NCBI GenBank assembly: GCA_024244705.1
Contig: JAAEOK010000042.1
Coordinates: 1 to 64,000 of the forward strand
DNA from: Alphaproteobacteria bacterium
Lineage (GTDB): Bacteria > Pseudomonadota > Alphaproteobacteria > JAAEOK01
Reading direction: 5' to 3'
DNA: 64,000 nucleotides
This document shows, piece by piece, positions 3,197-50,682 of the stretch. The notes beneath the pieces are model-generated. The model made no database searches. It was not told where the DNA came from and saw nothing but the letters and a program-made list of their open reading frames with translations. Positions within the stretch are counted from its first letter, which is position 1. Each line of letters begins with the position of its first letter. The position numbers and the translations under genes are program-made.

Positions 3197-4429
3197 CTAT
3201 GCCCTTCCCCTCATCTTGGACAGAGCGACAATTTGACCGTCCGTCGAGGGCATCTCACAAAACTCGGCCCATTCCTTCATCAATCGCCGACGCTTCTCGA
3301 ATAGGTCGCCACGCCGGTAGGCGGCCTCGACTTTATCGCCAACAACATGTGCGAGAGCCATCTCACAGACTTCGCGCGGATAGGCAGTGCATTCTGCCGC
3401 CCAATCTCTGAATGTGCTTCTAAATCCGTGAACCGTTAGATCGCTTCGGCCCATCCGTTTTAAAACGCTTAACATCGCCATGTTGGAAAGCGGCCGTCCC
3501 TTCCGTGCACCGCGAAAAATGAATTCGGCTTTCTCCTGGTCCTGCGCCATACCTTCCAGAATTTTCAAGGCCGCTTCGGATATCGGGATCCGATGCTCCC
3601 GGTTTCCCTTCATACACTCAGCGGGAACAGACCAAATGGCATTCACCAGATCGACTTCATCCCAATTCGAGCCGATAACTTCACCGGTTCGGGCGGCGGT
3701 CAATATTGTAAACTCGAGTGCTCTCGCTCCCACTCCGCCTTGCTGTCGAAGTTCCGCGATGAAATCAGCAACTTCGTCATAGGGCAATGTCGGATGGTGC
3801 CGGACTCGCTTGAGTTTCTCGACTCTCGGCAACAGGTTCTTTAGATGACCTCGCCAGCGGGCGGGATTCTCGCCTTGGCGATATCCACGCGCAGCGGCCC
3901 AATCCAATACAGCTTCTATTCGACCTCGGACGCGAGAGGCGGTTTCCGGCTTTACAGTCCAGACCGGCTCCAAGACCTTCAGAACGAGGCCAGTGTCGAT
4001 CGACTCAACCGTGACGTCACCGAACACAGGGAAGACATAGGTCTCAAGCGTGGAGGACCATTGGGCGGCGTGTTTTTCGTTTTGCCATCCGGCCCTATGC
4101 GCCTCGACGTATCTTGACGCTGCATCCCTGAACTTGACAAAGCCTTCTTCGGCTTGCCTGTCGGCGCGACGGCTATCGATTGGGTCTTTTCCTTCGAGCA
4201 GGAGCCTGCGGGCGTCTAGCGCCTTTTGACGGGCCTCTTGAAGGGATACCAAATCGAGTGAGCCCAATCCCATCCACCGAGCCCGCCCTCGCCTCTGAAA
4301 GCGAAAAACCCACGATCGACCTCCGGCAGGCGCAATCTGAAGATAGAGACCGCCACCGTCAGATTGAAAGCCTGGCTTTTTCAGCGCCGCTATGGAGCGC
4401 GCCGTCAACTTGTTTTTGACACGAGCCAT
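3197..4429 (-). CDS. Tyrosine recombinase / P4-type integrase
   Basis: A site-specific recombinase of the prophage P4 integrase type, 410 residues, complete. Residues 1-90 form the DUF4102 arm-binding domain (SDGGGLYLQI, ARWMGLGS, GKDP). A SAM-like core-binding domain follows at about 95-190, then the catalytic domain. The catalytic set is present: Arg247 in AARTGE, Lys274, His334 and Arg337 in HGFR, His361 and the nucleophile Tyr371 in AAYRRGD. It is therefore probably active. Such enzymes move genomic islands, usually at tRNA 3' ends, but no tRNA lies nearby. No excisionase, phage gene or obvious cargo boundary is visible, so it may be the remnant of a small or decayed island. Confidence 0.93.
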   Translation of the reverse strand: MARVKNKLTARSIAALKKPGFQSDGGGLYLQIAPAGGRSWVFRFQRRGRARWMGLGSLDLVSLQEARQKALDARRLLLEGKDPIDSRRADRQAEEGFVKFRDAASRYVEAHRAGWQNEKHAAQWSSTLETYVFPVFGDVTVESIDTGLVLKVLEPVWTVKPETASRVRGRIEAVLDWAAARGYRQGENPARWRGHLKNLLPRVEKLKRVRHHPTLPYDEVADFIAELRQQGGVGARALEFTILTAARTGEVIGSNWDEVDLVNAIWSVPAECMKGNREHRIPISEAALKILEGMAQDQEKAEFIFRGARKGRPLSNMAMLSVLKRMGRSDLTVHGFRSTFRDWAAECTAYPREVCEMALAHVVGDKVEAAYRRGDLFEKRRRLMKEWAEFCEMPSTDGQIVALSKMRGRA

Positions 4430-4708
4430 CCACCAAATGTATCCACGTTTATATCAACAATTAAAGGCCGGATTATGCCGGATTTCTAGGGATCATTCTA
4501 GACATAAAATAGACCTAATGCCCTATTTTTTATCATATTTTCTGGAGCACTACGGAACTACTCGGAACAAACCTTTGGCGGACACCCCATCCGCCATTTG
4601 AGCGCTTCGGCACGATCAGACTTGCCGCCAGATGACGGACCGACCGTACCTCGCCGAATCGCGGGCACAATTCGTGAAGGCGCTTCCCGCCGAATCGGAC
4701 CCACAGAT
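4430..4708. other. AT-rich intergenic segment upstream of the integrase
   Basis: The stretch at about 4440-4575 is visibly richer in A and T than the surrounding genes and contains several TATA-like strings. It must hold the integrase promoter and is the most likely place for an attachment site. I could not pick out a convincing repeat or operator by eye. Confidence 0.4.
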
Positions 4709-5173
4709 TCACGTTATCGCGATATCGAAATGCACGACATCCTCGCGCGTGCCCAATTTGGTGTAGAGCGCTATAGGCGGTGCATCGCCGAGATCAGCCT
4801 GCACGTAGACGACGTGGGCGCCACGATTCGCTGCGATCTTCTTGAGCTCCCCGATCAGCGCGGTCGCGATGCCCTCACGCCGGTGCGCTGCCGCCACTGC
4901 CAGATCGTAGATATAGATTTCGCTGCGTTCCCGCTCAAACTTGGGGAGTTCGTAGGCCGCGAGCCCACCCACGACCGCACCGTTCTTCACCGCGGCCAAC
5001 GCGATGAAATGATCACGACCGAGCAGGTGCTCCAAATAGGCCCTGCTGGGTCGCGCCCCGGTATAGGTCTCGACGTCGTCGAAGGCCTCGCCGAATGCCG
5101 TCATGAGAGCCTCCATCAGCGCAATGTCATGGCGCGTGACGTTTTTTATGCTGAAGAGGCTGGAAGACGACAT
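4709..5173 (-). CDS. AAC(3)-I-like GNAT N-acetyltransferase
   Basis: A single-domain GNAT acetyltransferase of 154 residues that closely follows the aminoglycoside 3-N-acetyltransferase I family. Shared landmarks are [36 protein letters not shown], the acetyl-CoA loop [17 protein letters not shown] and [15 protein letters not shown] at the C terminus. This order and wording are those of AAC(3)-I as I remember it, which acetylates gentamicin-type drugs. Whether this homologue uses aminoglycosides is not shown by sequence; chromosomal relatives may have other amine substrates. The start is uncertain: ATG at 5173 lacks a good ribosome site, and a TTG at 5191 would add six residues. It is monocistronic beside the integrase, without an attC site or other cassette features. 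Confidence 0.85.
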
Positions 5174-5453
5174 GGTTGACGGCAAACCCAAGTGATGCGC
5201 GCCAGCTTACCCAATACGACGACTGGCCGGAAGCGGGCAAACGCGGGAGCCGAGGTGACACACATCGCGAACGTCCACGTTTCCGGTCTGACACGCCACT
5301 TCCGAAACTTCACTTTGTCTTCATGTCGATCATGGCATTTTAGCGTCGAAGTGAAATCCACGGCCCCATTCGGCCTATGCGAAGGCGGCGGCGGTCGGCT
5401 AGTTTGGTCGCGAGACAGTTTGCCCCTGAACGACGACAGAGGGAACGCGATCT

Positions 5454-7193
5454 GTGCCGGGCCCCCGCGTCACCAAAGTCACGACGATCGGCATCGACGC
5501 GCCGCCAAGAGTGCTGCTGTCATTGGCCGCGCGGGCGGTCAAGGAGGGCCGCCTCGACGAGGCCAAGGGGCATCTCTTGAAGGCGGCGGAAACCGCCGGG
5601 ACCGGCACCAAGGACGCACGTTCCATCGCCGCGCAACTCAACAATCTGGCCACTGCATTTGTCGCGGCGCGGCGCGATAATGTTGCGGTCACGCTGCTGG
5701 AACGGGCGGTCGTGCTCGATCCCGACTACCCGCTCGCCTCCCTCAATTTGGGCACGATCCACCTCAATCATCGCAACCCGTCGCCGGCTCGACGCGCTTT
5801 CGACCGGGTCCTTTCGCTCACGCCGGACAATCCGGCGGCGCTTGCCGGGAGCCTCGACGCGCGGCTGATGACAGCGGATTGGAAAGACCTCGAATCCGAT
5901 ACCGACCGGCTCATGGCGCTAATCAAACGCTATCGAAGCGACGGCCGGAGCCACAACGTCCGACCTTTCCTGGCGTTGCAACTCGATATCGACAATGCCG
6001 AACGGCGGCGCATCGCCGAGGATTGGGCCGCTCCCTTCACAGTCGTCGACGTGCCGGAACGACGCGAGCCTCACCATGGCCCGCTCAAGATCGGGTACTT
6101 GTCCGCCGATTTTCGCAACCATCCGGTGGCCCACCTGTTGGCCCCCCTGTTCGGCGCCCATGATCGCGCCAAGGTGGAGGTTTGCGGTTACTCGTTCGGC
6201 GCCGATGATGGCAGTGCCGAACGGCAAAGGATCGAGGGCGGCTGCGACAAGTTCGTCGATTTGAACACACTCGACGATGGGAACGCGGCGGCGGCAGTCG
6301 CGGCCGACGGGATCGACATCTTGATCGACCTAGTGGGTTGGACGGGATCGGTCCGGGCCGGCGTTCTCGCCCCGCGTCCGGCACCGGTTCAGGTCGCCTA
6401 TTTCGGCTATCCCGGAACCTCCGGCGCCCCTTGGATCGATTACATCATTGCCGATCCGGTGGTTCTACCCAAGGACGACTATAGTTTCTTCTCCGAGCAG
6501 GTGATCACCCTGCCCCGCACCTATCTTGTCTCCGATCCCGATCAGGCCGAGACGGCAGATCCACTGCGCCGCGCCGATTGCGGGCTGCCGGAAGAGGCCA
6601 TCGTGTTCGCTTGTTTCAATCATGCCAACCGACTCGAGCCGGCGGTCTTCGCGCTGTGGATGGAGATCCTGACCGCCGTGACCGGCTCCGTCCTGTGGCT
6701 CCATGCCGATTACGAGGAGACCAAGGACAACCTTCGCCACGCCGCGGCCCAAAAGGGTGTCGATCCGGGCCGTATTGTCTTTGCGCAGCGTGAGAACCGG
6801 CCGCGCCATCTCCGCCGCCAACAATGCGCCGACCTGTTCCTCGACACTCTGATCTATAACGCCCACGCGACGGCCTGCGACAGCCTGTCCTCTGGCTTGC
6901 CCCTGCTGACCTGCCGCGGTCGATCATTCGCCGGACGGGCCGCGGCCAGCGTCTTGACCACGCTCGGTCTCGACGACCTCATCGCCGAAGATCACGGTTC
7001 CTATGTCGCCCAAGCGATCGCCCTCGCCGAGGATCCTGCCCGGCTCAAGAATGTCCGCCGGCGACTCGAGGAAGCCCTTAGATCCAGCCGGTTCCGGGAT
7101 ATCGGATCGTTCGCCCGGGACCTCGAACGCGCCTACGAACTGATTTGGCGAAATCATGCCGCGGGCAAGGCACCCCGCGATTTCGACCTGTGA
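5454..7193 (+). CDS. TPR protein with O-GlcNAc-transferase-like (SPINDLY/GT41) domain
   Basis: A putative cytoplasmic protein O-glycosyltransferase of 579 residues. Residues 15-135 carry TPR helices (NNLATAF, LASLNLGTIHLNHRN). From about 210 the GT41 domain shows YLSADFRNHPVAHLL with the conserved His, GYPGTSGAPWIDYIIAD, FACFNHANRLEP, and LDTLIYNAHATACDSLSSG followed by FAGRAAASVL, which parallel human OGT motifs. The GTG at 5454 is preceded by GAGGGA at a suitable distance. The acceptor protein and the sugar are unknown. A paralogue with the same architecture lies at 60842-62710. It is followed after 82 bases by an Ala-rich helical protein on the same strand. Confidence 0.88.
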   Translation: MPGPRVTKVTTIGIDAPPRVLLSLAARAVKEGRLDEAKGHLLKAAETAGTGTKDARSIAAQLNNLATAFVAARRDNVAVTLLERAVVLDPDYPLASLNLGTIHLNHRNPSPARRAFDRVLSLTPDNPAALAGSLDARLMTADWKDLESDTDRLMALIKRYRSDGRSHNVRPFLALQLDIDNAERRRIAEDWAAPFTVVDVPERREPHHGPLKIGYLSADFRNHPVAHLLAPLFGAHDRAKVEVCGYSFGADDGSAERQRIEGGCDKFVDLNTLDDGNAAAAVAADGIDILIDLVGWTGSVRAGVLAPRPAPVQVAYFGYPGTSGAPWIDYIIADPVVLPKDDYSFFSEQVITLPRTYLVSDPDQAETADPLRRADCGLPEEAIVFACFNHANRLEPAVFALWMEILTAVTGSVLWLHADYEETKDNLRHAAAQKGVDPGRIVFAQRENRPRHLRRQQCADLFLDTLIYNAHATACDSLSSGLPLLTCRGRSFAGRAAASVLTTLGLDDLIAEDHGSYVAQAIALAEDPARLKNVRRRLEEALRSSRFRDIGSFARDLERAYELIWRNHAAGKAPRDFDL

Positions 7194-7275
7194 CGACGGC
7201 GCGGCCATTCCGGTCGCGGAGAAGAGGTTGTATGCTGCGCGAGAGCCGCGATCACCAAGTAGAGAGGAGGAACCG

Positions 7276-7851
7276 ATGAGCGAAGAAAAGAACGAACAAT
7301 CGTCGAAGGCGGGGACCGGCGGCAATGTCGCGGCGGACGCCGCGCGCGATATGATGCAGAGCGCGGTGGACATGCTCAATGCAGCGATTTCGCAGCAGGA
7401 TTCGGTGATGAAATCCGTTGCCGATCGAAAGGAAGCCTTCGACCAAGCCTTCGAGGATCAGCGCAAGGCGGCGCTCGATCGGATCGCCGATGCCCGCCGC
7501 GCGATCTTCGATGCCTCCCATGCCGCCAACCAGGCGTTGCACGAAACGACAGAACAAATCATGGAATCCCCAGAAACGGCGGAGGCCAGGAAGGCGGTTT
7601 CGGAAGCCGCCAAAGCCAATATCACGGCGTCGAACGCGGCCGCCGACGCTCTGTCGCACGCCTTGAGGCAGGCGTCCGATCATGTTGCGGACGCGGTACG
7701 CGCCGGTCATGAAGAGCACGTTGCTCAGGCGCAAACCGCGCTCGACAGCGCCAAACAGCAAATCGCGATCCTCAAGGAAAAAGCCGATGCGGCGGTGAGC
7801 GAACTCGAGGGTCACGTCGACGATTTGATCAAGAAATCGAAGGGATCGTAA
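7276..7851 (+). CDS. Ala-rich helical phasin-like protein
   Basis: A 191-residue soluble protein that is almost entirely predicted amphipathic helix: rich in Ala, Gln, Glu and Lys, with no signal peptide, no Cys and almost no Gly or Pro outside the first 20 residues. The composition resembles phasins and apolipoprotein-like coiled coils that coat granules or membranes, but no PHA synthesis gene is in the window. The start is fixed by AGAGGAGGAA just before the ATG at 7276; an upstream in-frame ATG lacks such a site. It lies 82 bases after the TPR/GT41 gene and could be cotranscribed with it. The function is unassigned. Confidence 0.75.
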   Translation: MSEEKNEQSSKAGTGGNVAADAARDMMQSAVDMLNAAISQQDSVMKSVADRKEAFDQAFEDQRKAALDRIADARRAIFDASHAANQALHETTEQIMESPETAEARKAVSEAAKANITASNAAADALSHALRQASDHVADAVRAGHEEHVAQAQTALDSAKQQIAILKEKADAAVSELEGHVDDLIKKSKGS

Positions 7852-7871
7852 TTCGCGTTCGCGGGGTTTTC

Positions 7872-8819
7872 CTAATCGGCATCGGGGATCGATTGGCGCG
7901 GTGCCGCATACCTCAGATAGGCCATGCGTTTGGCCTCGAGGCGGCCACGGCTGACGCTTTCGAGAACCAACCCGCAGGCAAGGCTCAGGAACGACAGCAT
8001 CATGATCGCAGTTACGATCATTGCCGTCGGTAGGCGGGGCACCAAGCCGGTCTCCATGTAGGTCGCGACGAGCGGGATACCGAGCGCCAGGGCGAGCACT
8101 GCGAGCATCAATCCCGCGACCGAGAAAAACAGCAGCGGTCGGACGTGCCGGAGCAGGCTGAGCGTGGTCCAGAGGATACGAATTCCGTCGCGCCAGGTAT
8201 TCAGTTTGCTCTCCGACCCGTCGGGCCGGGCTCGATAATGGGTTTCCACTTCCGCGATCGGCATGCGCAATTGAAAACAGTGCACGGTCAATTCCGTCTC
8301 GATACCGAATCCCGCCTCGGCGGTGGGAAAGGATTTGACCATCCGGCGCGATAAGACGCGATATCCGGACAACATATCCGCGACCCGCCACCCGAACACG
8401 GCGGCGAACAGCCAGTTGAGGGCGGCATTGCCGAGAACGTGCCCGGTTCGGTAGGCCGCGGCACTTTCGACCGTGGTCCGGCATCCGACGACCATGTCGA
8501 GGTTGTCGCGAAGCAGGAGGTCGACCATTTCCGGCGCCCGTTGGGTCTCATAGGTGTCGTCGCCATCGGCCATTATATAGATGTCCGCCTCCACGTCGGC
8601 GAACATCCGTCGCACCACGTTGCCCTTCCCGGGGCGGCCTTCCGTGCGCACGATGGCGCCGGCGGCCTTGGCGATCGCGGCGGTCTCGTCCTCTGATTCG
8701 TTGTCGTAAACATAGATTCGCGCACCCGGCATAGCCCCTCTGAACCCCGCGACGACGTCGGCGATCGCGGCCGCTTCATTGCGGCACGGCAACAAGACCG
8801 CGATGTTCGGCAAAGGCAT
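7872..8819 (-). CDS. GT2-family glycosyltransferase with C-terminal membrane anchor
   Basis: A 315-residue family 2 glycosyltransferase of the dolichyl/undecaprenyl-phosphate sugar transferase type. The N-terminal GT-A fold shows ALLPCRNE-like VLLPCRNE, VYDNESEDET and the metal-binding DGDD at 85-88. GKGNVVRRMF and SGYRVLSRR follow. Two transmembrane helices lie at about 230-257 and 265-290, which places the active site at the inner face of the cytoplasmic membrane. It probably loads a sugar on a polyprenyl phosphate for envelope glycan synthesis. It is convergent with the Ala-rich gene and is not in an obvious polysaccharide operon. The ATG at 8819 starts directly at the conserved domain. 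Confidence 0.88.
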   Translation of the reverse strand: MPLPNIAVLLPCRNEAAAIADVVAGFRGAMPGARIYVYDNESEDETAAIAKAAGAIVRTEGRPGKGNVVRRMFADVEADIYIMADGDDTYETQRAPEMVDLLLRDNLDMVVGCRTTVESAAAYRTGHVLGNAALNWLFAAVFGWRVADMLSGYRVLSRRMVKSFPTAEAGFGIETELTVHCFQLRMPIAEVETHYRARPDGSESKLNTWRDGIRILWTTLSLLRHVRPLLFFSVAGLMLAVLALALGIPLVATYMETGLVPRLPTAMIVTAIMMLSFLSLACGLVLESVSRGRLEAKRMAYLRYAAPRQSIPDAD

Positions 8820-9063
8820 CGTCGTGATCTCCAGCGGCAGAGCGGGGTCGAATTATTGTCGTTGTTGGCCAGAAACCTACGGCATAAACGAAGCCGGTGG
8901 CAATGGTCCGCGCAAGGCCGTGCGCAATCCCGATACTTGGTCGTCCGACATTACGGCGCCCCTCCTCACATGCGATCACAATTGCGGGAGCACGAGTTCC
9001 CTAACGCCGCAATTTCATTAAAATATAAACAACAAACATGTTTTAATCACTTTGCGGTGGATC

Positions 9064-9327
9064 ATGGACCTCAAGCTCTTCGCACTCGCAATCCCGATCA
9101 TCCTCACAGGATGCGGCACCTATTCACCTCCGGGGAACGCCGAATTCGAAGCCGGCTACTACAACGGCTGCATGCATGGATACGCCCTCAACTCCCCCTA
9201 TGTCGCCAATCGCGACGAGGGCAAGTATGCCGCCAGCGGCGACTACCGGACCGGTTGGAACAGCGGCCAAAACGAATGTGCGGATGAAGCCCATTCGGGC
9301 TCGATCGCCGAGTCCTGGCACCCCTAG
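9064..9327 (+). CDS. Small lipoprotein of unknown function
   Basis: An 87-residue protein with a short lipoprotein signal: MDLKLFALAIPIIL followed by the lipobox LTGC, giving Cys17 as the lipidated residue. The mature part is hydrophilic with a few further cysteines (NGC, NEC) and repeated Gly-Tyr pairs (AGYYNGC, HGYAL). The ATG at 9064 follows GCGGTGG closely; a TTG at 9052 is an alternative start. No family is recognised with confidence. It is flanked by divergent and unrelated genes. Confidence 0.65.
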   Translation: MDLKLFALAIPIILTGCGTYSPPGNAEFEAGYYNGCMHGYALNSPYVANRDEGKYAASGDYRTGWNSGQNECADEAHSGSIAESWHP

Positions 9328-9497
9328 CCATAGCGCTCCCGCCTTCGGTGAAACTTGCCGGCTGCGCCATCGCTGACCTCGTCCCGGCGAGCGATGCCGA
9401 TGGCTTGCCGCCGCATGGCCAATCCGATAGGAAGATGCGGGATGCCGGCGCCACCTTTCGAAGATCTCGGAACCAGCCGGCCAAGCGGGAGGCACGG

Positions 9498-10286
9498 ATG
9501 GGCTACGAAACACTGGGTTTGGAAAAGGACGATGGCATTGCCACCATTACAATGTCCCGTCCCGCATCGCTCAATGCGCTAGATGTCAAGCTGGCCGCTG
9601 AACTGCGCGAAGTCCTCGAGGACCTACGTGAAGATTCCGATGTCCGCGTGTTGATCATTACCGGCAGCGGCCGCGGCTTTTGTGCCGGCGGCGACGTGGC
9701 GGCGTTTCACGCAAACCTCGATCATGAACCCCGATACCTGCGCGACCTGCTGTTGCATTTCCATACGGCCATGGCGTGTTTGGTCGCGCTGCCCTTCCCG
9801 GTCATCGCCAGCATCAATGGGGTCGCCGCGGGCGCCGGCATGGGCTTTTGCTTGGCGCCGGATCTTGCGATCGCTGCCGAGAGCGCGGTGTTCACCATGG
9901 CCTACACTCGAATCGGCGCGACGCCCGACGGCAGTACGACCTACTTCCTACCGCGGGTGGTCGGCACCCGGCGCGCGATGGAAATGATCCTGTTGAATCG
10001 CTCGTTGACTGCCGCCGAGGCGCTCGACTGGGGCATCGTCAATATGGTCGTCGCCGACGGCGCCCTGGAAGACGAAGTCAAGAAACTGGCGATCAAGCTG
10101 CGCGATGGACCGACCGTTGCCTACAGCGCCGCGCGCCGACTCGTCGGCGGCAGCTTTGATGCGTCGCTGGCCGCGCAGTTGGAGCGTGAGGGCGCGTCTA
10201 TCGCAGCCATGGGCGCCACGGCGGACTTTCGCGAAGGTGTCACCGCCTTCGTCGAAAAACGACCGGCCCAATTCAAGGGTCGCTAG
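9498..10286 (+). CDS. Enoyl-CoA hydratase/isomerase family protein (PaaG-like)
   Basis: A 262-residue crotonase-fold protein. The oxyanion-hole signature GRGFCAGGDVAAF and the second loop NGVAAGAGMGFCLA are intact. In the active-site region the sequence is IGATPDGSTTYFLPRVVG, with Asp where classical hydratases have Glu, as in PaaG-type isomerases. It should therefore act on a double bond of an enoyl-CoA, possibly as an isomerase. GGGAGG about 7 bases before the ATG at 9498 rules out the longer upstream reading. Its last 14 bases overlap the end of the convergent gene at 10273. Confidence 0.88.
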   Translation: MGYETLGLEKDDGIATITMSRPASLNALDVKLAAELREVLEDLREDSDVRVLIITGSGRGFCAGGDVAAFHANLDHEPRYLRDLLLHFHTAMACLVALPFPVIASINGVAAGAGMGFCLAPDLAIAAESAVFTMAYTRIGATPDGSTTYFLPRVVGTRRAMEMILLNRSLTAAEALDWGIVNMVVADGALEDEVKKLAIKLRDGPTVAYSAARRLVGGSFDASLAAQLEREGASIAAMGATADFREGVTAFVEKRPAQFKGR

Positions 10287-42107: not shown

Positions 42108-42890
42108 GTGCGGCTGACTGCGGATCAAATCGAAGGGTTCCAGCGCGACGGCTATGTGGTCCTACCCGACCTTTTCTCGCCGGAAGAAATTGCGGCGCTA
42201 CGGCGCCCCCTGCCCCGCCTGTTTGCCGAGGATATTCCCGCCAACGTCATCGAAAAACGCAGCGGCGTGGTGCGTACGGCGATGGGCCTGCATCTGCGCC
42301 ATCCGATCTACGCGGACCTGGTGCGCCATCCGCGGCTGATCGAGCCGGCGAGCCAGTTGCTCGAGGACGATGCTCTCTATGCCCAGCAGGTCAAGGTCAA
42401 CGTCAAGGCGGCGTTCGAGGGGGAAACCTGGCAATGGCATTATGATTTCGCCACCCATCACCACGAAGACGGCGTTGTCGCCCCGCTCGCCCTGAACCTG
42501 CACGTCTTTCTCGACGACGTGACCGAATTCAACGGGCCGCTGCATTTCATCGCGGGATCCCACAAGAAACCACCGCAACCGGCCTTCCTGGATACGACGA
42601 CGACGAGTTACGACCTCTGGTGCGTCGGGCATGATGTCGTCGCCGAGTTGACCGCGGCCGGCCGCCTGTTTGCCGCCAAGGGACGCGCCGGCACGGGATT
42701 GATATTCGGCGACTGCCTGGTCCATTGCTCGCCACCGAACCTTTCACCTTGGGACCGGCATATTTTTTCGCTGATCGTCAACCCGGTGTCGAATGCCTAT
42801 ACGCGGGCCGAGCGGCCCGATTGGAAACATCACCGCGATCTGACGCCGATCGAAACCGTGGCCGACGATTGTCTTATCGCGAAGAATTGA
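42108..42890 (+). CDS. PhyH-family Fe(II)/2-oxoglutarate dioxygenase, EctD-like
   Basis: A 260-residue non-haem iron dioxygenase. WQWHYDFATHHHEDG supplies two iron ligands (His111, Asp113) and is close to the ectoine hydroxylase signature WHSDFETWHxEDG. FNGPLHFIAGSHK and GLIFGDCLVHCSPPN with a downstream Arg give the third His and the 2-oxoglutarate contact. It should hydroxylate a small substrate, possibly ectoine or a relative, but no ectABC genes are in the window. The start is a GTG preceded by GAGGGT; longer in-frame starts exist up to 42051. Its final 60 bases are repeated near 45788-45848. Confidence 0.85.
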   Translation: MRLTADQIEGFQRDGYVVLPDLFSPEEIAALRRPLPRLFAEDIPANVIEKRSGVVRTAMGLHLRHPIYADLVRHPRLIEPASQLLEDDALYAQQVKVNVKAAFEGETWQWHYDFATHHHEDGVVAPLALNLHVFLDDVTEFNGPLHFIAGSHKKPPQPAFLDTTTTSYDLWCVGHDVVAELTAAGRLFAAKGRAGTGLIFGDCLVHCSPPNLSPWDRHIFSLIVNPVSNAYTRAERPDWKHHRDLTPIETVADDCLIAKN

Positions 42891-43431
42891 ACGACACCGG
42901 CGGCGCGATCCGCAATCTTTCAAGGCAGGACGGCATTTAGAATAATCGAACGGCGCTCAGAAGAGCGCAACGCCGCGGTGCAAGCAGTCGACCATGCATA
43001 AACGGCAGTAATCGCTCGCCGAGTTTGAAAGGTGCCGCAATGGCGTCTGTCGTGTTGGGGCGCTCTTGCCAAGATTTACTCAGAAGAACAACATATTCGC
43101 AGCTGCCATCTTTGCCATTTCCTCTGAATCTGGGCAGAATAGATTTACATTACAAATTAGGCGTGAGGGGGCGCAAGAGCGCGCCAACCGTCGCTTTAAA
43201 GCGACCACAACCTAGTCGTTGCCAAGGAAATTTCGGGACGCGCCCTCAACTTGCCCGTCTGGGACATGATCATTTCTCGTCCGCATGGATTGCAAGGATC
43301 CCGTGCTCTGCGATTTTTCCGTTTCTCCTCGCTTGGGCTCGCGGACGATGTGGCCCAAGTGATCAAGATCCTCCGACGCCTGTTAAGGCGGGCACAAACT
43401 CGTCCCTCATATCGTAATGAAAGGTGCGAAA
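42891..43431. other. Intergenic, no supported gene
   Basis: A 541-base gap between the dioxygenase and a lipoprotein. An open frame of 130 codons from 43025 exists, but its peptide has irregular composition with many Arg, Ser and Pro and no domain, so it is not called. No terminator or repeat was identified by eye. Confidence 0.4.
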
Positions 43432-44960: not shown

Positions 44961-45773
44961 ATGCCAAGCGCCATGAACCGCTACGCTTCGGGCTTGGCTG
45001 TAGTTCTCTGTGGGCTCATGTTATCGGGATGTGCGTCGGTACCACCGGACGAGCAAGTTAAAGCGGAACCACAGCCGCAACAGACGGCCGAAGAGGAATG
45101 CACGCGCCTCGACGCCGTTGCACTAAGTGCGAAGTTTGCGATCGTGGATATGCCTGTCGGCGTGACAAAGCGCGCAGTGGAAGATTGCTCGGCGGGCGAC
45201 ATTTATGCATGCGTCGCACTGCCGGGCGTTCCTTTTTTTGCGGCAATCGCCGGTTTAGGTATATCGCCTTTGCTAGCCGTGATGCCCTTATTCGAGGACA
45301 AACAATACCATCGAGTCTGCGCTTCGAAAGAGGACGATGAAGAGGAGGGTGTCGCTCAAGCGCGGAAAGATAAAATGCAAGATCAGGCGGACAATGGGAG
45401 CGCGAACCGCCAATGGTATTTCGCCGTCTACTACGCTGAAGGCCCCGAACAGATCGATTACCTTTGCCGTTCGGCTAAGCAGGGCTATGCGCCTGCCCAG
45501 TATTACCTCGGCAGCAAACTTAATGTAGGCGATTACCGACCGGATGCGCGGGTCACCCCCGACCCTGTCCGCGCTGCGCCGGTCACCCCCGACCCTGTCC
45601 GCGCTTACATGTGGTACACGCTGGCGGTAAACTCGTACGACAAGAATGAAGCATTCTTTGGACGAGACGCGGTATCCGATCGCAACGCACTAAGCGCTTC
45701 CATGACTCCCGATCAAATCGCCGGAGGCGAACGCCTGGTCGCCGCGTGGACGTCCGAGAGCCCATGTCCATGA
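44961..45773 (+). CDS. Sel1-repeat-like lipoprotein
   Basis: A 270-residue lipoprotein with lipobox LSGC. After an acidic Gln/Glu-rich linker and a hydrophobic segment (GVPFFAAIAGLGISPLLAVMP) the C-terminal half has a Sel1/TPR-like helix pair: LCRSAKQGYAPAQYYLGSKL and AYMWYTLAVN. Between them the ten-residue unit VTPDPVRA(A/Y)(P/M) occurs twice in tandem, from a 30-base DNA duplication. Sel1 repeats usually mediate protein contacts. It is the last of the three lipoprotein genes; a fragment of the dioxygenase 3' end follows 15 bases after its stop. Confidence 0.68.
   Translation: MPSAMNRYASGLAVVLCGLMLSGCASVPPDEQVKAEPQPQQTAEEECTRLDAVALSAKFAIVDMPVGVTKRAVEDCSAGDIYACVALPGVPFFAAIAGLGISPLLAVMPLFEDKQYHRVCASKEDDEEEGVAQARKDKMQDQADNGSANRQWYFAVYYAEGPEQIDYLCRSAKQGYAPAQYYLGSKLNVGDYRPDARVTPDPVRAAPVTPDPVRAYMWYTLAVNSYDKNEAFFGRDAVSDRNALSASMTPDQIAGGERLVAAWTSESPCP
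45545..45604 (+). repeat. 30-bp tandem repeat, two copies, in frame
   Basis: Positions 45545-45574 and 45575-45604 differ at one base. The duplication keeps the reading frame and adds ten residues to the lipoprotein, pointing to recent slippage or unequal exchange. Confidence 0.85.
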
Positions 45774-45787
45774 GCCGAAAAAGTCGG

Positions 45788-45848
45788 CGCGACCTGACGC
45801 CGATCGAAGGCGTGGCCGACGATTGCCTTATCGCGAAGAATTGAACGA
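45788..45848 (+). pseudogene. Copy of the EctD-like dioxygenase 3' end
   Basis: These 61 bases match 42834-42894 with about four mismatches, covering the C-terminal residues RDLTPIE..VADDCLIAKN, the stop codon and a few bases beyond. Nothing of the rest of the dioxygenase is present here. The intact gene and the fragment bracket the three lipoprotein genes. The fragment is either a relic of a second dioxygenase copy or the footprint of a duplicative insertion. Confidence 0.75.
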
Positions 45849-46049: not shown

Positions 46050-47399
46050 TTGAGGGGCTTGTTTCTGGCGCTGGCCGTTGTCGTCGGGTTCGTCCTCGGC
46101 GGCATTGCAGATGCGCGATCCCAGACGCCCGAGCCGTCGCAGGCCGAGTTGCAGGCCGAATACGACCGGCTGTTCCAACAGATGTTCCGCGACCCGTCGA
46201 ACCTGGACCTGACCTTCAAGTTCGCCGCCGTCGCCAACAAGCTGGGCAATTTCGAGTCCGCGATCAGTGCCCTCGAGCGGATGTTGCTGATCAACCCCAA
46301 CCTGCCCCGGGTCAAGCTCGAGCTCGGCGTCCTCTACTACCGGCTCGCCGCTTATGCGATCGCGAAGTCCTATTTCGAAAGCGCCATCGCCGGCGGCGAC
46401 GCGCCCGCATTGGTGATCGAACGGGTCAACTTCTATACCGAGGAAATCGACCGGCGCCTGAGCCGGCACAATTGGACGGGGGCGATCAGCGCCGGATTCC
46501 GTGGCCAAAGCAACGCAAATGCCGGACCGTCATCGAACCTCGTTCGTGTCCTCGGCAACAACGCCACGCTCGACGACCAATTTCTTGGACAGCCCGACGG
46601 TAATATTTTCACCGGCGGAAACGTCACGCATTCCTATGATTTCCGTAACAGTATCGTCGATAGCTGGCAAACCGACGGAACCGCGTTCTACACTCATCAG
46701 TTCACCTTCGACCAACTCGACCTCGCGTTCGGCGAAGTTCGGACGGGGCCACTGTTCCTCGTCGATCCGGACCTGGCCAATCAATTCTCGGTACGCCCCT
46801 ATGTGACATCGAATGTGTTGGCGCTCGGGGAGCTCATCAATTTCTACAGCTACGGTGCCGGGGTACGAGTGTTCAAGCTGATCGATACGGTGACCTCGAT
46901 GTCGGCCGATTTCCAGTACCGGCACCAGGTCTACATCAACACCTCGGCGCGGCCGCTCAACAGCGAGCTCACCAACGACGGGCCGTTGTTGCAGGCGGCG
47001 GTGCAGCATTTCGTCACGCTGGATACGTCCGTCGGCCTGAATTTCACCTTCTCCGACGAAGAAGCGACGATGAACTACAATTCCAATACGGAATACATCA
47101 TCGCCGGTTTCGCCAGTTTCCAGTATCCACCGCCGATGGATCTGACGAATTGGCCCTGGCGCCTCGACGTTTCCGCGCTCGGCGCGCTCACCGATTATGA
47201 TGCGCCGGACCCGAGCGTCGATCCGCTGGTCACCCGACAGGATCGCGAATGGCGCGTAAATGTGGTAAATACAATCGGTTTTTCGCGCGAATGGTCCGCG
47301 TTCCTGCAGCTCGGGTATACTGAAAATCAATCGAATTTACCGAATTTTACGTTTCAAAATTTATCAGGGGTCGTGGGCGTGAGGAAATCGTTCTTCTGA
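46050..47399 (+). CDS. TPR plus outer-membrane beta-barrel protein (Slam/DUF560-like, tentative)
   Basis: A 449-residue exported protein. After a signal peptide (LFLALAVVVGFVLGGIADA) residues 35-145 form TPR helices (FAAVANKLGNFESAISALERM, ELGVLYYRLAAY). Residues 150-449 look like a transmembrane barrel: alternating strands, many aromatic and polar residues, SAGFRGQSNANAGP at its entry and a terminal Phe (VVGVRKSFF). N-terminal TPR plus a roughly 300-residue barrel is the Slam architecture, the outer-membrane component of type XI secretion. The TTG start follows AGGGGG by eight bases. The next gene encodes a large exported protein with a TbpB-like end, a typical Slam cargo feature. Confidence 0.7.
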   Translation: MRGLFLALAVVVGFVLGGIADARSQTPEPSQAELQAEYDRLFQQMFRDPSNLDLTFKFAAVANKLGNFESAISALERMLLINPNLPRVKLELGVLYYRLAAYAIAKSYFESAIAGGDAPALVIERVNFYTEEIDRRLSRHNWTGAISAGFRGQSNANAGPSSNLVRVLGNNATLDDQFLGQPDGNIFTGGNVTHSYDFRNSIVDSWQTDGTAFYTHQFTFDQLDLAFGEVRTGPLFLVDPDLANQFSVRPYVTSNVLALGELINFYSYGAGVRVFKLIDTVTSMSADFQYRHQVYINTSARPLNSELTNDGPLLQAAVQHFVTLDTSVGLNFTFSDEEATMNYNSNTEYIIAGFASFQYPPPMDLTNWPWRLDVSALGALTDYDAPDPSVDPLVTRQDREWRVNVVNTIGFSREWSAFLQLGYTENQSNLPNFTFQNLSGVVGVRKSFF

Positions 47400-47439
47400 T
47401 CACATTTTCGCCGCATACCCCCGTTAAGGAGCTGTGGCC

Positions 47440-50400
47440 ATGATGACAAGATCCCATCTTACGCGCTCGGCGTCGGCGATCGTGCTCGCGCTGTGTATCG
47501 CGGCGCCGGTCGGCGCCAAGGAAATCGGCACGACAGCCGCTGTCAACCCTGCGACCTACGGCACGCCCCCGGATGCGGGCCGACGCACCCTGCTGCTCGG
47601 CGCGGATGTGGTGTTCAAGGAAGCGGTCGAGACCGAAGGACGCGGCCAGACCCAGATCTTGTTCCTCGACGAATCGACGCTGACCATCGGACCGAACTCG
47701 AAGATCGTCCTCGATGAGTTCGTCTATGATCCGGCCGCGGCCGACGGCACGCTGTCGATCTCGATGGCCCAGGGCGTCCTCCGCTATGTCGGCGGCAAGA
47801 TCAGCAAGACGGGCGGCGTCAGCATTGAGACACCTTCGGCGATTATTGGTGTTCGCGGTGGCATCAGCGTCGTCAAGCATGACCCCGGCACCGGCGACAC
47901 CTCGGTCTTGGCGCCATTCGGGATCATCACGATCAAGACGCCGGGCAGCGATCCTGGCGGCTCCGGAGAAGGCGAGGACGACGACGGCACGACCGCGGAT
48001 TCGACCGTCTTGGTCACCGTCGGCAGTGACGGCAGCGTCGAATCGACCGAGGTCGATCCCGACGATGTGGCGAGCCTCTTTTCCAATTTCCAGGGCGGGA
48101 CCGGAGACGGCCTCGGCAATGAAGAGGTCGAAGAGGGGTTCAATGAGAATCCGCCTCCGTCCAATGATCCCAGCGCTGATCCTGGCAGTTACACGCCCAA
48201 TCATAACATCGGCACCAACACCATAGGTGGCATTGATCTAAATATCGATCCAGGTGAAGTAAATCAAAATAACAACGCGGCGGGTCCGCCTGAGGTGGCG
48301 CCGCCACCACCACCGCCGAACATGGCGCCGGATGCCATGAACGACCTCTACAACACCCTGCAGGACACCGTGTTGATTGTTCCCATGGGGGCCACGGACC
48401 TCAATGCCAACGACCTCGACGAGGCTGGGATGCCGCCGGTGACGGCGTTCGATGCGGTTAGCGCGTTCGGCGGCGCCGTCGTCGCCAACGCGGACGGGTC
48501 GTTCACCTATACGCCTCCCGCAGGCTTCTTCGGCACAGACACGTTCGAATACACGGTCACCGATGCCGGCGAGCTTATGGACACGGCCACCGCGTCGATC
48601 GTCGTCAGCGGCATAATCGGCGGACGGGTGATGCTCACGACCGATCCTTTTACCACCGATGATGGGGGTCTCGTCACCGATCCTTTCCTGCAGAATTTCA
48701 TCGGCGGTCCGGATCTGGATTCCAACACCGGATTCAGCGACGCGATCTACAACCCGGCAAGCGGCGTTCTCGCCTTGCCGATAGTCGGCGTTGCCTTGCC
48801 GGCACCGTGTGAGAACGCCGCTGGCGCCGCCTGCCTGTTCCCAACGCTTGCGTTCGGCACGGAGTTCGAGTTCGACGTCATCGCCGTGCCCGGTGAGGGT
48901 CCGTTCGAGGCGACCGGGTACGTTTCGAACTTCGACTTCGATTTCTATTATTTCGACGCGACGAACAGCACGGCAGGCTTCGAAGACACCGCCTTCATCT
49001 TCGGCGGCAATCCGACCGATCTCAGCAACCCGGCATTGGCCAACGGCACCGTGCGCACCTACGACCTCCGCCCCGATCCCAACCTGTCACCATCGGTCAT
49101 TCCCTTCGTTTCACAATTTGCCGGCGGCAATTTCACGAATCCGAGCGTGTCGCCCTACTACCTCGTCGAGCCGACTTCCGGCGGTTTCGACACGACAACG
49201 CCGATCGGCGTCGAGGAATTTCTGTTCAACGGGGCCCAGACGCTTCAAGCCTCGTTCGCGATCCAAGGCCAGTGGGCGGCCCAAAAGTCAATCCTGGTCG
49301 GCGTGGCGGGAGGATTGTTCGAGAGCGAGGACGACGAGGGCGCCATCGTGATCACGGAAGGCACGCGGGGCACGGCGCGCTATGACGCCACGGAGGACAC
49401 GACGCGGTTCACCGCGCAGATCGGTTCGGTCCCAGACGAGAATGACGATCATTTCTTCGGTCCGGACCTCGATTACTTCGTCCTCCACAACAACGACCCA
49501 TGGGGCGTGAATTCGAACCCGAGCGATATTTTTACGTCGGGAAACTTCGAGATTACCCATAGCGGGATCGGCACGGTGAACGGCTATCGCCACGTCGCCA
49601 GCGCCACCGACACCGCGTTCGTGCCCGGCATGCGCGTCGACCACACCAGCGAGAGCAATCCGCTCCGCGGCTATTTCGCGGTGCTCGGGCAATCGGTCGA
49701 ATTCCCGGAAGGCCCGGTGTTCTCCGATCCCTATCCGGTGATGACGGAGAACGACCTGCCATTCGGCGCCGAGCAGGGGCTCTTCATGGCCACCGACACG
49801 ACGACCAACTCCCTCTTCGCCCGCTTTAACTTCGACACCGATGCCATCCCCGACGGGCCAGTCACCGACATCACCGACGGCCGGTTCACGTTCGGCGGGA
49901 TCGGCGGAACCCGCGGGACCTATATCGACGAGCAGCATTTCGGCGCTCGCAATGTCGGGGGGCCTTCGGCGCCGCAAGGCGATATTAACGGCGAACCTGG
50001 CGAATCCTTCACGTTCAACCCGGACGGCTTCCGCTCGCTCATGGTCGCCCATGACGTCGTCGGCGAACCGACCTTCAAGCCCGGCGTCGACTATTGCGAA
50101 TGCGACTACCTGAAATGGGGCTATTGGACGTCGGAGTTCATTTGGGACGATTCGCAATCGGAGGTTTTCAGGACGGAGCGCTTCCACCTCGGCACCTTCG
50201 CCGCCGGCGAGCTACCGACCCAAGGCGATATCAACGACCTGCGGACGGCCGGCGCGGTCGCGAATTTCGACGGCCATATGATCGGCAACGTCTGGGACAA
50301 TACGGGCGAGGTAGCGGAACAATATATCGAGGCGGCGAATTTCGACGCGTTTTGGAACTTCGGCTCCCAAGACGGCACCTTCGCGGTCGACGATTTCGAT

Positions 50401-50682
50401 GGCGCGGCATTCAGCGGGTCGATCAACGCCAAGGGCGATATCGCCGTTAGTCCGCTGGGCGCCCATTTCAGCGGCTCCGACACCGCCATGCGTGGGTCGA
50501 CCGAGGTGCAGATCGATATCGACGGCTCGTTCTTCCAGGGCGCGACCACCGCCGCGGATCATATCGGCGGCCACGGCGTGATCTACGATACCGGCACCGG
50601 CGGCGAGGTCCCGATACCCGGGGAAGAGTATCGCGCCACCGTCACGTTCGCGGCCGACGGAGATGTAACGATTCCGCAGTAA
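47440..50682 (+). CDS. Large secreted FecR-domain protein with Ig-like and TbpB-like C-terminal domains
   Basis: A 1080-residue exported protein with a Sec signal (VLALCIAAPVGA) and no lipobox. Residues 48-200 form a FecR-type domain (LFLDESTLTIGPNSKIVLDEFVY split by turns, and TPSAIIGVRGG). An acidic Gly/Asp linker follows, then a cadherin/Big_9-like unit near 295-395 with ADGSFTYTPPAGFFGTDTFE. A long region of unknown fold leads to the last 110 residues, where AFSGSINAKGDIAV and DIDGSFFQGATTAADHIGG recall the TbpB-type beta barrel recognised by Slam proteins. AAGGAG sits eight bases before the ATG at 47440; a GTG lies six bases upstream. It is 40 bases downstream of the TPR/barrel gene. Confidence 0.78.
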   Translation: MMTRSHLTRSASAIVLALCIAAPVGAKEIGTTAAVNPATYGTPPDAGRRTLLLGADVVFKEAVETEGRGQTQILFLDESTLTIGPNSKIVLDEFVYDPAAADGTLSISMAQGVLRYVGGKISKTGGVSIETPSAIIGVRGGISVVKHDPGTGDTSVLAPFGIITIKTPGSDPGGSGEGEDDDGTTADSTVLVTVGSDGSVESTEVDPDDVASLFSNFQGGTGDGLGNEEVEEGFNENPPPSNDPSADPGSYTPNHNIGTNTIGGIDLNIDPGEVNQNNNAAGPPEVAPPPPPPNMAPDAMNDLYNTLQDTVLIVPMGATDLNANDLDEAGMPPVTAFDAVSAFGGAVVANADGSFTYTPPAGFFGTDTFEYTVTDAGELMDTATASIVVSGIIGGRVMLTTDPFTTDDGGLVTDPFLQNFIGGPDLDSNTGFSDAIYNPASGVLALPIVGVALPAPCENAAGAACLFPTLAFGTEFEFDVIAVPGEGPFEATGYVSNFDFDFYYFDATNSTAGFEDTAFIFGGNPTDLSNPALANGTVRTYDLRPDPNLSPSVIPFVSQFAGGNFTNPSVSPYYLVEPTSGGFDTTTPIGVEEFLFNGAQTLQASFAIQGQWAAQKSILVGVAGGLFESEDDEGAIVITEGTRGTARYDATEDTTRFTAQIGSVPDENDDHFFGPDLDYFVLHNNDPWGVNSNPSDIFTSGNFEITHSGIGTVNGYRHVASATDTAFVPGMRVDHTSESNPLRGYFAVLGQSVEFPEGPVFSDPYPVMTENDLPFGAEQGLFMATDTTTNSLFARFNFDTDAIPDGPVTDITDGRFTFGGIGGTRGTYIDEQHFGARNVGGPSAPQGDINGEPGESFTFNPDGFRSLMVAHDVVGEPTFKPGVDYCECDYLKWGYWTSEFIWDDSQSEVFRTERFHLGTFAAGELPTQGDINDLRTAGAVANFDGHMIGNVWDNTGEVAEQYIEAANFDAFWNFGSQDGTFAVDDFDGAAFSGSINAKGDIAVSPLGAHFSGSDTAMRGSTEVQIDIDGSFFQGATTAADHIGGHGVIYDTGTGGEVPIPGEEYRATVTFAADGDVTIPQ

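Follow-up and report, generated by a model that had tools for sequence, protein, structure and literature searches.

The gene pair at positions 46050–50682 of the window (by which we mean the whole stretch of 64,000 nucleotides of alphaproteobacterial DNA that was analysed) probably constitutes a divergent type 11 secretion (T11SS, or Slam) unit of Alphaproteobacteria, exporting a FecR-headed surface protein; we put the probability of this reading at about 0.78. The computations show that both proteins are homologous to a Slam/cargo pair, predict their folds and show that the gene pairing is conserved. From these results we infer the translocation of the cargo, its exposure at the surface and the topology of its FecR domain.

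The first gene (46050–47399, + strand) starts with a TTG codon at 46050 and runs to the stop at 47399, coding for 449 residues. Its product has a hydrophobic N-terminal signal sequence, TPR-type helices, an outer-membrane barrel and a C-terminal phenylalanine (...RKSFF), the last three as described in the first-pass annotation. The TPR domain (46140–46460, residues 31–137) is matched by TPR models of Pfam, the match to TPR_Slam being weak and below the cut-off (E 0.014), and the barrel is formed by residues 140–448 (46467–47393). The AlphaFold model (pLDDT 93.7) contains six helices and 14 barrel strands; 14 strands is also the topology reported for the Slam/DUF560 network (PMC8406197).

When searched alone as a single sequence against Pfam, the window protein does not match the Slam model PF04575. 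Neither protein of the pair matches PF04575 or PF01298, which counts against the T11SS assignment; a family search of the whole genome found no match to either model, but this is weak evidence, as control genomes were equally without a match. Both partners of the pair escape the standard domain models. Full-length relatives of the barrel protein are present in many families among the 385 genomes of the class that were searched, mostly at 24–38% sequence identity. Scanned one by one (E up to 0.1), 31 of 44 aligned relatives match TPR_Slam and 15 match PF04575, the best with an E-value of 7.9e-14. Proteins gathered via PF04575 were aligned into a canonical Slam profile, and the two families were compared profile to profile with hhalign. 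They match with a probability of 99.8% over 370 columns (E 5e-28), from the TPRs through to the terminal phenylalanine. For the barrel columns by themselves (286 columns) the value is 98.9%, compared with 0.2% for a control in which the barrel alignment was reversed. Judged by these profiles, the homology of the family to canonical Slam extends across both the TPR domain and the barrel. The Slam-like character proposed earlier is therefore confirmed for the family, not for the window protein alone in Pfam.

The second gene (47440–50682, + strand) begins 40 bases downstream. The open frame starts with a GTG at 47434 (1082 residues), but the ATG at 47440 is better placed, with AAGGAG just upstream, and yields the exported protein of 1080 residues that had been predicted at this distance from the barrel gene. 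The domain order is a putative signal peptide, FecR, linker, Big_9 and, at the C terminus, a lobe that contains an eight-stranded barrel. The FecR domain (47524–47928, about residues 31–165 of the 1082-residue frame; Pfam E 7.5e-8) lies right behind the signal peptide, and the Big_9 or cadherin-like domain (E 8.1e-14) comprises residues 296–389 (48319–48600). As read from the sequence, the N terminus is Sec-like and a canonical lipobox is absent (...LALCIAAPVGA-KE). The architecture proposed for the cargo in the first-pass annotation, starting with a FecR domain and a cadherin/Big_9-like unit and without a lipobox, is what we find. Unlipidated T11SS cargos are already known.

The C-terminal region shared with related FecR proteins includes a CxCxxxxWGxW motif, a GTWVAG segment and the terminal domain. 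In the window partner alone, Pfam has no match in the C-terminal barrel region, PF01298 included; among the C-terminal domains of its FecR relatives, 16 of 23 match PF01298 and 13 of 23 match FHBP_C (E up to 1). A profile of this domain, compared with the PDB, retrieves NHBA (3.2e-7), TbpB (1.2e-5), fHbp and LbpB, and the first 23 matches are to these four proteins only. The same profile recovers, at 1.6e-11, a TbpB_B_D protein that was absent from it; this 985-residue protein has no FecR domain and is encoded directly upstream of a Slam-like gene (locus L092, 8281–11238, − strand).

Residues 393–1082 of the partner were modelled with AlphaFold. The first 125 residues of the model are of low confidence, the middle part of medium confidence and the last 190 of high confidence (pLDDT mostly above 90). 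The high-confidence part consists of a handle region with two long strands (50110–50208, residues 893–925), beside the conserved CxCxxxxWGxW motif, and the eight-stranded barrel of the TbpB/NHBA/fHbp type (50257–50670, residues 942–1079). Structurally, the lobe matches NHBA best (Z 13.3, 2.6 Å over 142 residues), with TbpB (Z 12.9), fHbp (Z 12.9) and HpuA (Z 11.9) close behind; among the VIA-align matches listed, all are to these four proteins, with Z-scores of 11–13. The TbpB-type barrel suspected at the C terminus is thus supported by strand number, profile and fold. The motif that had been quoted as the C terminus itself, DIDGSFFQGATTAADHIGG, is located within the last 60 residues, short of the very end. 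Two loci encode FecR cargos of about 1620 residues with two TbpB-type lobes, as in TbpB (L039, 8167–13065; L045, 8181–13043).

Conservation of the pair, for which the first-pass annotation had proposed a survey, was found in two partly overlapping surveys. In the first, the barrel gene has a FecR gene beside it at 40 of 58 loci, on the same strand and nearly always immediately downstream; in the second, of named organisms, it is so in 62 of 80 loci, and the partner carries a TbpB-like lobe in 53 of the 80. The gap between the two genes is usually less than 50 bases. Six barrel genes of the second survey are close to a contig end. A search of genome contigs with the window protein as a single query gave no match, and a wide alignment offered no conserved stretch that could serve as a query; the second survey was obtained with a narrower one. 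Among the named hosts are Oceanibacterium, Reyranella, Microvirga, Chelatococcus, Aureimonas, Vineibacter and Mesorhizobium. Four loci (L086, L145, L148 and L151) have a tandem pair of FecR partner genes behind a single barrel gene.

In a tree of 64 barrels, the FecR-paired ones belong to one clade of 51 (SH-aLRT 99), separate from Slam proteins of the PF04575 type, and the FecR neighbour changes only five times. Some barrels of this clade have no FecR neighbour, and a recognised barrel is absent from 17 of the 40 FecR partners of the first survey; both observations count against the T11SS assignment, and the latter implies that barrel recognition is not the whole story for the clade. Partners with FecR only and partners with FecR plus lobe are intermixed on the tree, so the lobe has been gained, lost or diverged past recognition more than once. 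The short FecR partners, and those of the group L086, L088, L091, L093 and L094, have no significant Pfam domain besides FecR. One subclade of barrels of the same family (L119–L128, L046, L049, L050 and L051) has neither a FecR nor a TbpB-type partner nearby. Partners of this FecR-less marine subclade were not found; at L049, most of the neighbouring genes that were scanned have housekeeping functions (SurA-like, acyl-CoA dehydrogenase, flavin oxidoreductase).

The genome of the window has two detected barrel genes of this kind, each followed by a FecR gene, and four FecR genes in all. The second pair (L036) is on the same contig, at a distance of 100 kb. Its barrel is 38% identical to that of the window, and its partner is a FecR protein of 338 residues, one of those without a recognised lobe; a CHASE2 adenylate cyclase gene is directly upstream of the pair.

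Three genes upstream of the window pair do carry lipoboxes (LSAC, LAGC and LSGC), but the suggestion that they encode further partners was rejected, as the roughly 140 related loci contain no homologue of any of them. These orphan genes are flanked by the copies of a 70-base direct repeat with 89% identity (42825–42894 and 45779–45848), one at the end of a PhyH dioxygenase gene and the other a stray copy just upstream of the pair. The repeated 3'-end of the PhyH gene suggests an insertion, duplication or local rearrangement at this position. The third lipoprotein gene contains a 30-base tandem duplication (45545–45604). A scan for promoters and terminators gave nothing informative.

Transposing the mechanism of Slam1 to the window pair, the barrel protein would act as the translocon in the outer membrane, and would use its periplasmic TPR domain together with the 14-stranded barrel to capture the partner after Sec export. 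In Slam1, unfolded TbpB passes through the barrel, assisted by the periplasmic holdase Skp (PMC9090332); by analogy, the window barrel would take its partner from the periplasm by the C-terminal lobe. The FecR domain directly follows the signal peptide, which is the place of the lipid anchor in known lipoprotein cargos. Occupying this position, it may anchor the cargo or report from the periplasmic side, while the disordered linker and the Big_9 unit may connect the FecR head to the lobe at the surface. Two topologies can be envisaged: either the cargo is exported as a whole, or its FecR head remains periplasmic and the linker crosses the membrane. FecR-only partners are conserved beside the same barrel family, which argues that FecR is functionally tied to the barrel or to the cyclase instead of being carried along passively.

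An alternative, which we consider unlikely, is a trans-envelope sensor, in which the Slam-like barrel and its FecR partner form an outer-membrane receptor. From the periplasm, the FecR domain would signal to CHASE2 adenylate cyclases in the inner membrane, and the TbpB-type lobe, where present, would bind ligand. The existence of FecR-only partners fits such a sensor, and so does the gene neighbourhood: a CHASE2-cyclase gene is within the locus in 23 of the 40 loci with FecR and in none of the 18 without (Fisher p 1.8e-5), and each of the three CHASE2 genes in this genome adjoins a FecR gene or is one gene away from it. Pair and cyclase are linked in cultured relatives as well, for example in Microvirga pakistanensis (L163) and Vineibacter terrae (L183). 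FecR-CHASE2 neighbourhoods are also known in Burkholderia (PMC5192318) and near cyaD1 of Sinorhizobium meliloti (PMC5498481), and in S. meliloti an outer-membrane barrel, NsrA, feeds CHASE2 cyclases (PMC7529298). Against it, the window pair has no CHASE2 gene near it, within the window, and the S. meliloti FecR protein SMc02177 is dispensable for perceiving the plant signal tested (PMC5498481). With no more than 3 to 5 independent contrasts on the barrel tree, significance is out of reach for the association, and among 20 CHASE2 loci sampled independently of Slam, FecR is nearby in five and a Slam-like gene in one. Because the contingency p-value does not survive phylogenetic pairing and independently sampled CHASE2 loci rarely have the pair, CHASE2 coupling is retained as a rival explanation only.

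The CHASE2 linkage nevertheless hints at cAMP signalling. It is conceivable, if rather improbable, that the translocon itself serves as a receptor, with a periplasmic FecR head, the lobe displayed via the Slam-like barrel and surface binding reported to CHASE2 adenylate cyclases and thence to cAMP. The same genome has two further FecR-CHASE2 neighbourhoods. At L084, a FecR protein of 223 residues (6770–7441, + strand) is encoded directly upstream of a CHASE2 protein (7456–9504, + strand); this is the third such neighbourhood of the genome. At L085, a protein of 1364 residues with FecR, cadherin/Big_9 and RTX repeats (3599–7693, − strand) is divergent from a CHASE2 cyclase (7856–10126, + strand). 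From its sequence, it looks like a type I-secreted adhesin, that is, a FecR head on another secretion route.

A TPR-porin that exports exopolysaccharide (PgaA/BcsC/PelB type), with the FecR protein as an accessory, is very improbable. The top Foldseek match of the Slam-like protein by E-value is indeed a TPR-barrel protein, BcsC, and no solved Slam structure is among the PDB matches listed. BcsC is a TPR-porin with a 16-stranded barrel; the window model has 14 strands, and the best solved structures matching its barrel among the matches listed are CymA and OmpG (Z 19–22), both 14-stranded barrels. The TbpB-type lobe of the partner is a further argument against a polysaccharide porin, which we reject on the strand number and on the profile match to Slam across TPRs and barrel. 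That an ordinary surface or periplasmic protein of the FecR family should neighbour an unrelated porin by chance, as the absence of FecR beside some barrels of the clade might suggest, has a negligible probability and is rejected by the conservation of the pairing, with adjacency in 102 of 138 loci (the two surveys overlapping in part) and a second pair in the same genome.

Returning to the secretion unit, the clade and its FecR-headed cargo are new. In the literature searched, we found no paper joining FecR with Slam or T11SS, and neither FecR nor CHASE2 is mentioned in the main text of the 2021 and 2025 T11SS surveys (PMC8406197, PMC12282271). Typical cargos were not found for most marine (Rhodobacteraceae) T11SS systems, according to the latter (PMC12282271). 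The clade described here adds a large number of alphaproteobacteria, free-living for the most part, that have an evident, if putative, cargo; its architecture places a signalling-type domain at the head, and protein export may thus be linked to cAMP signalling. The unit points to a so far undescribed branch of T11SS, which may be tied to signalling. To our knowledge, all experimentally verified T11SS translocons belong to a single animal-associated cluster.

Compared with the FecR-CHASE2 loci of Burkholderia (BiofilmReg) and of the S. meliloti cyaD1 region, the paralogous L036 pair likewise has its FecR protein beside a CHASE2 gene, whereas no CHASE2 gene accompanies the window pair; at those loci, neither a Slam-like barrel nor a lobe of the TbpB type has been described. 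With the T11SS cargos TbpB, fHbp, NHBA and HpuA and the soluble haemophores, the window partner shares the C-terminal handle strands and eight-stranded barrel (Z 11–13), but it differs in its N-terminal FecR domain, long disordered linker, Big_9 domain and lack of a lipobox. Like Slam1 and Slam2 of Neisseria and other T11SS proteins of the DUF560 family (PF04575), the window barrel protein combines a TPR domain with a 14-stranded barrel and has a neighbouring gene for a protein with a C-terminal barrel of the TbpB/fHbp type. It differs from them in being too diverged to match PF04575 or TPR_Slam above the cut-off, in belonging to a separate alphaproteobacterial clade and in having a partner that starts with a FecR domain instead of a lipid anchor.
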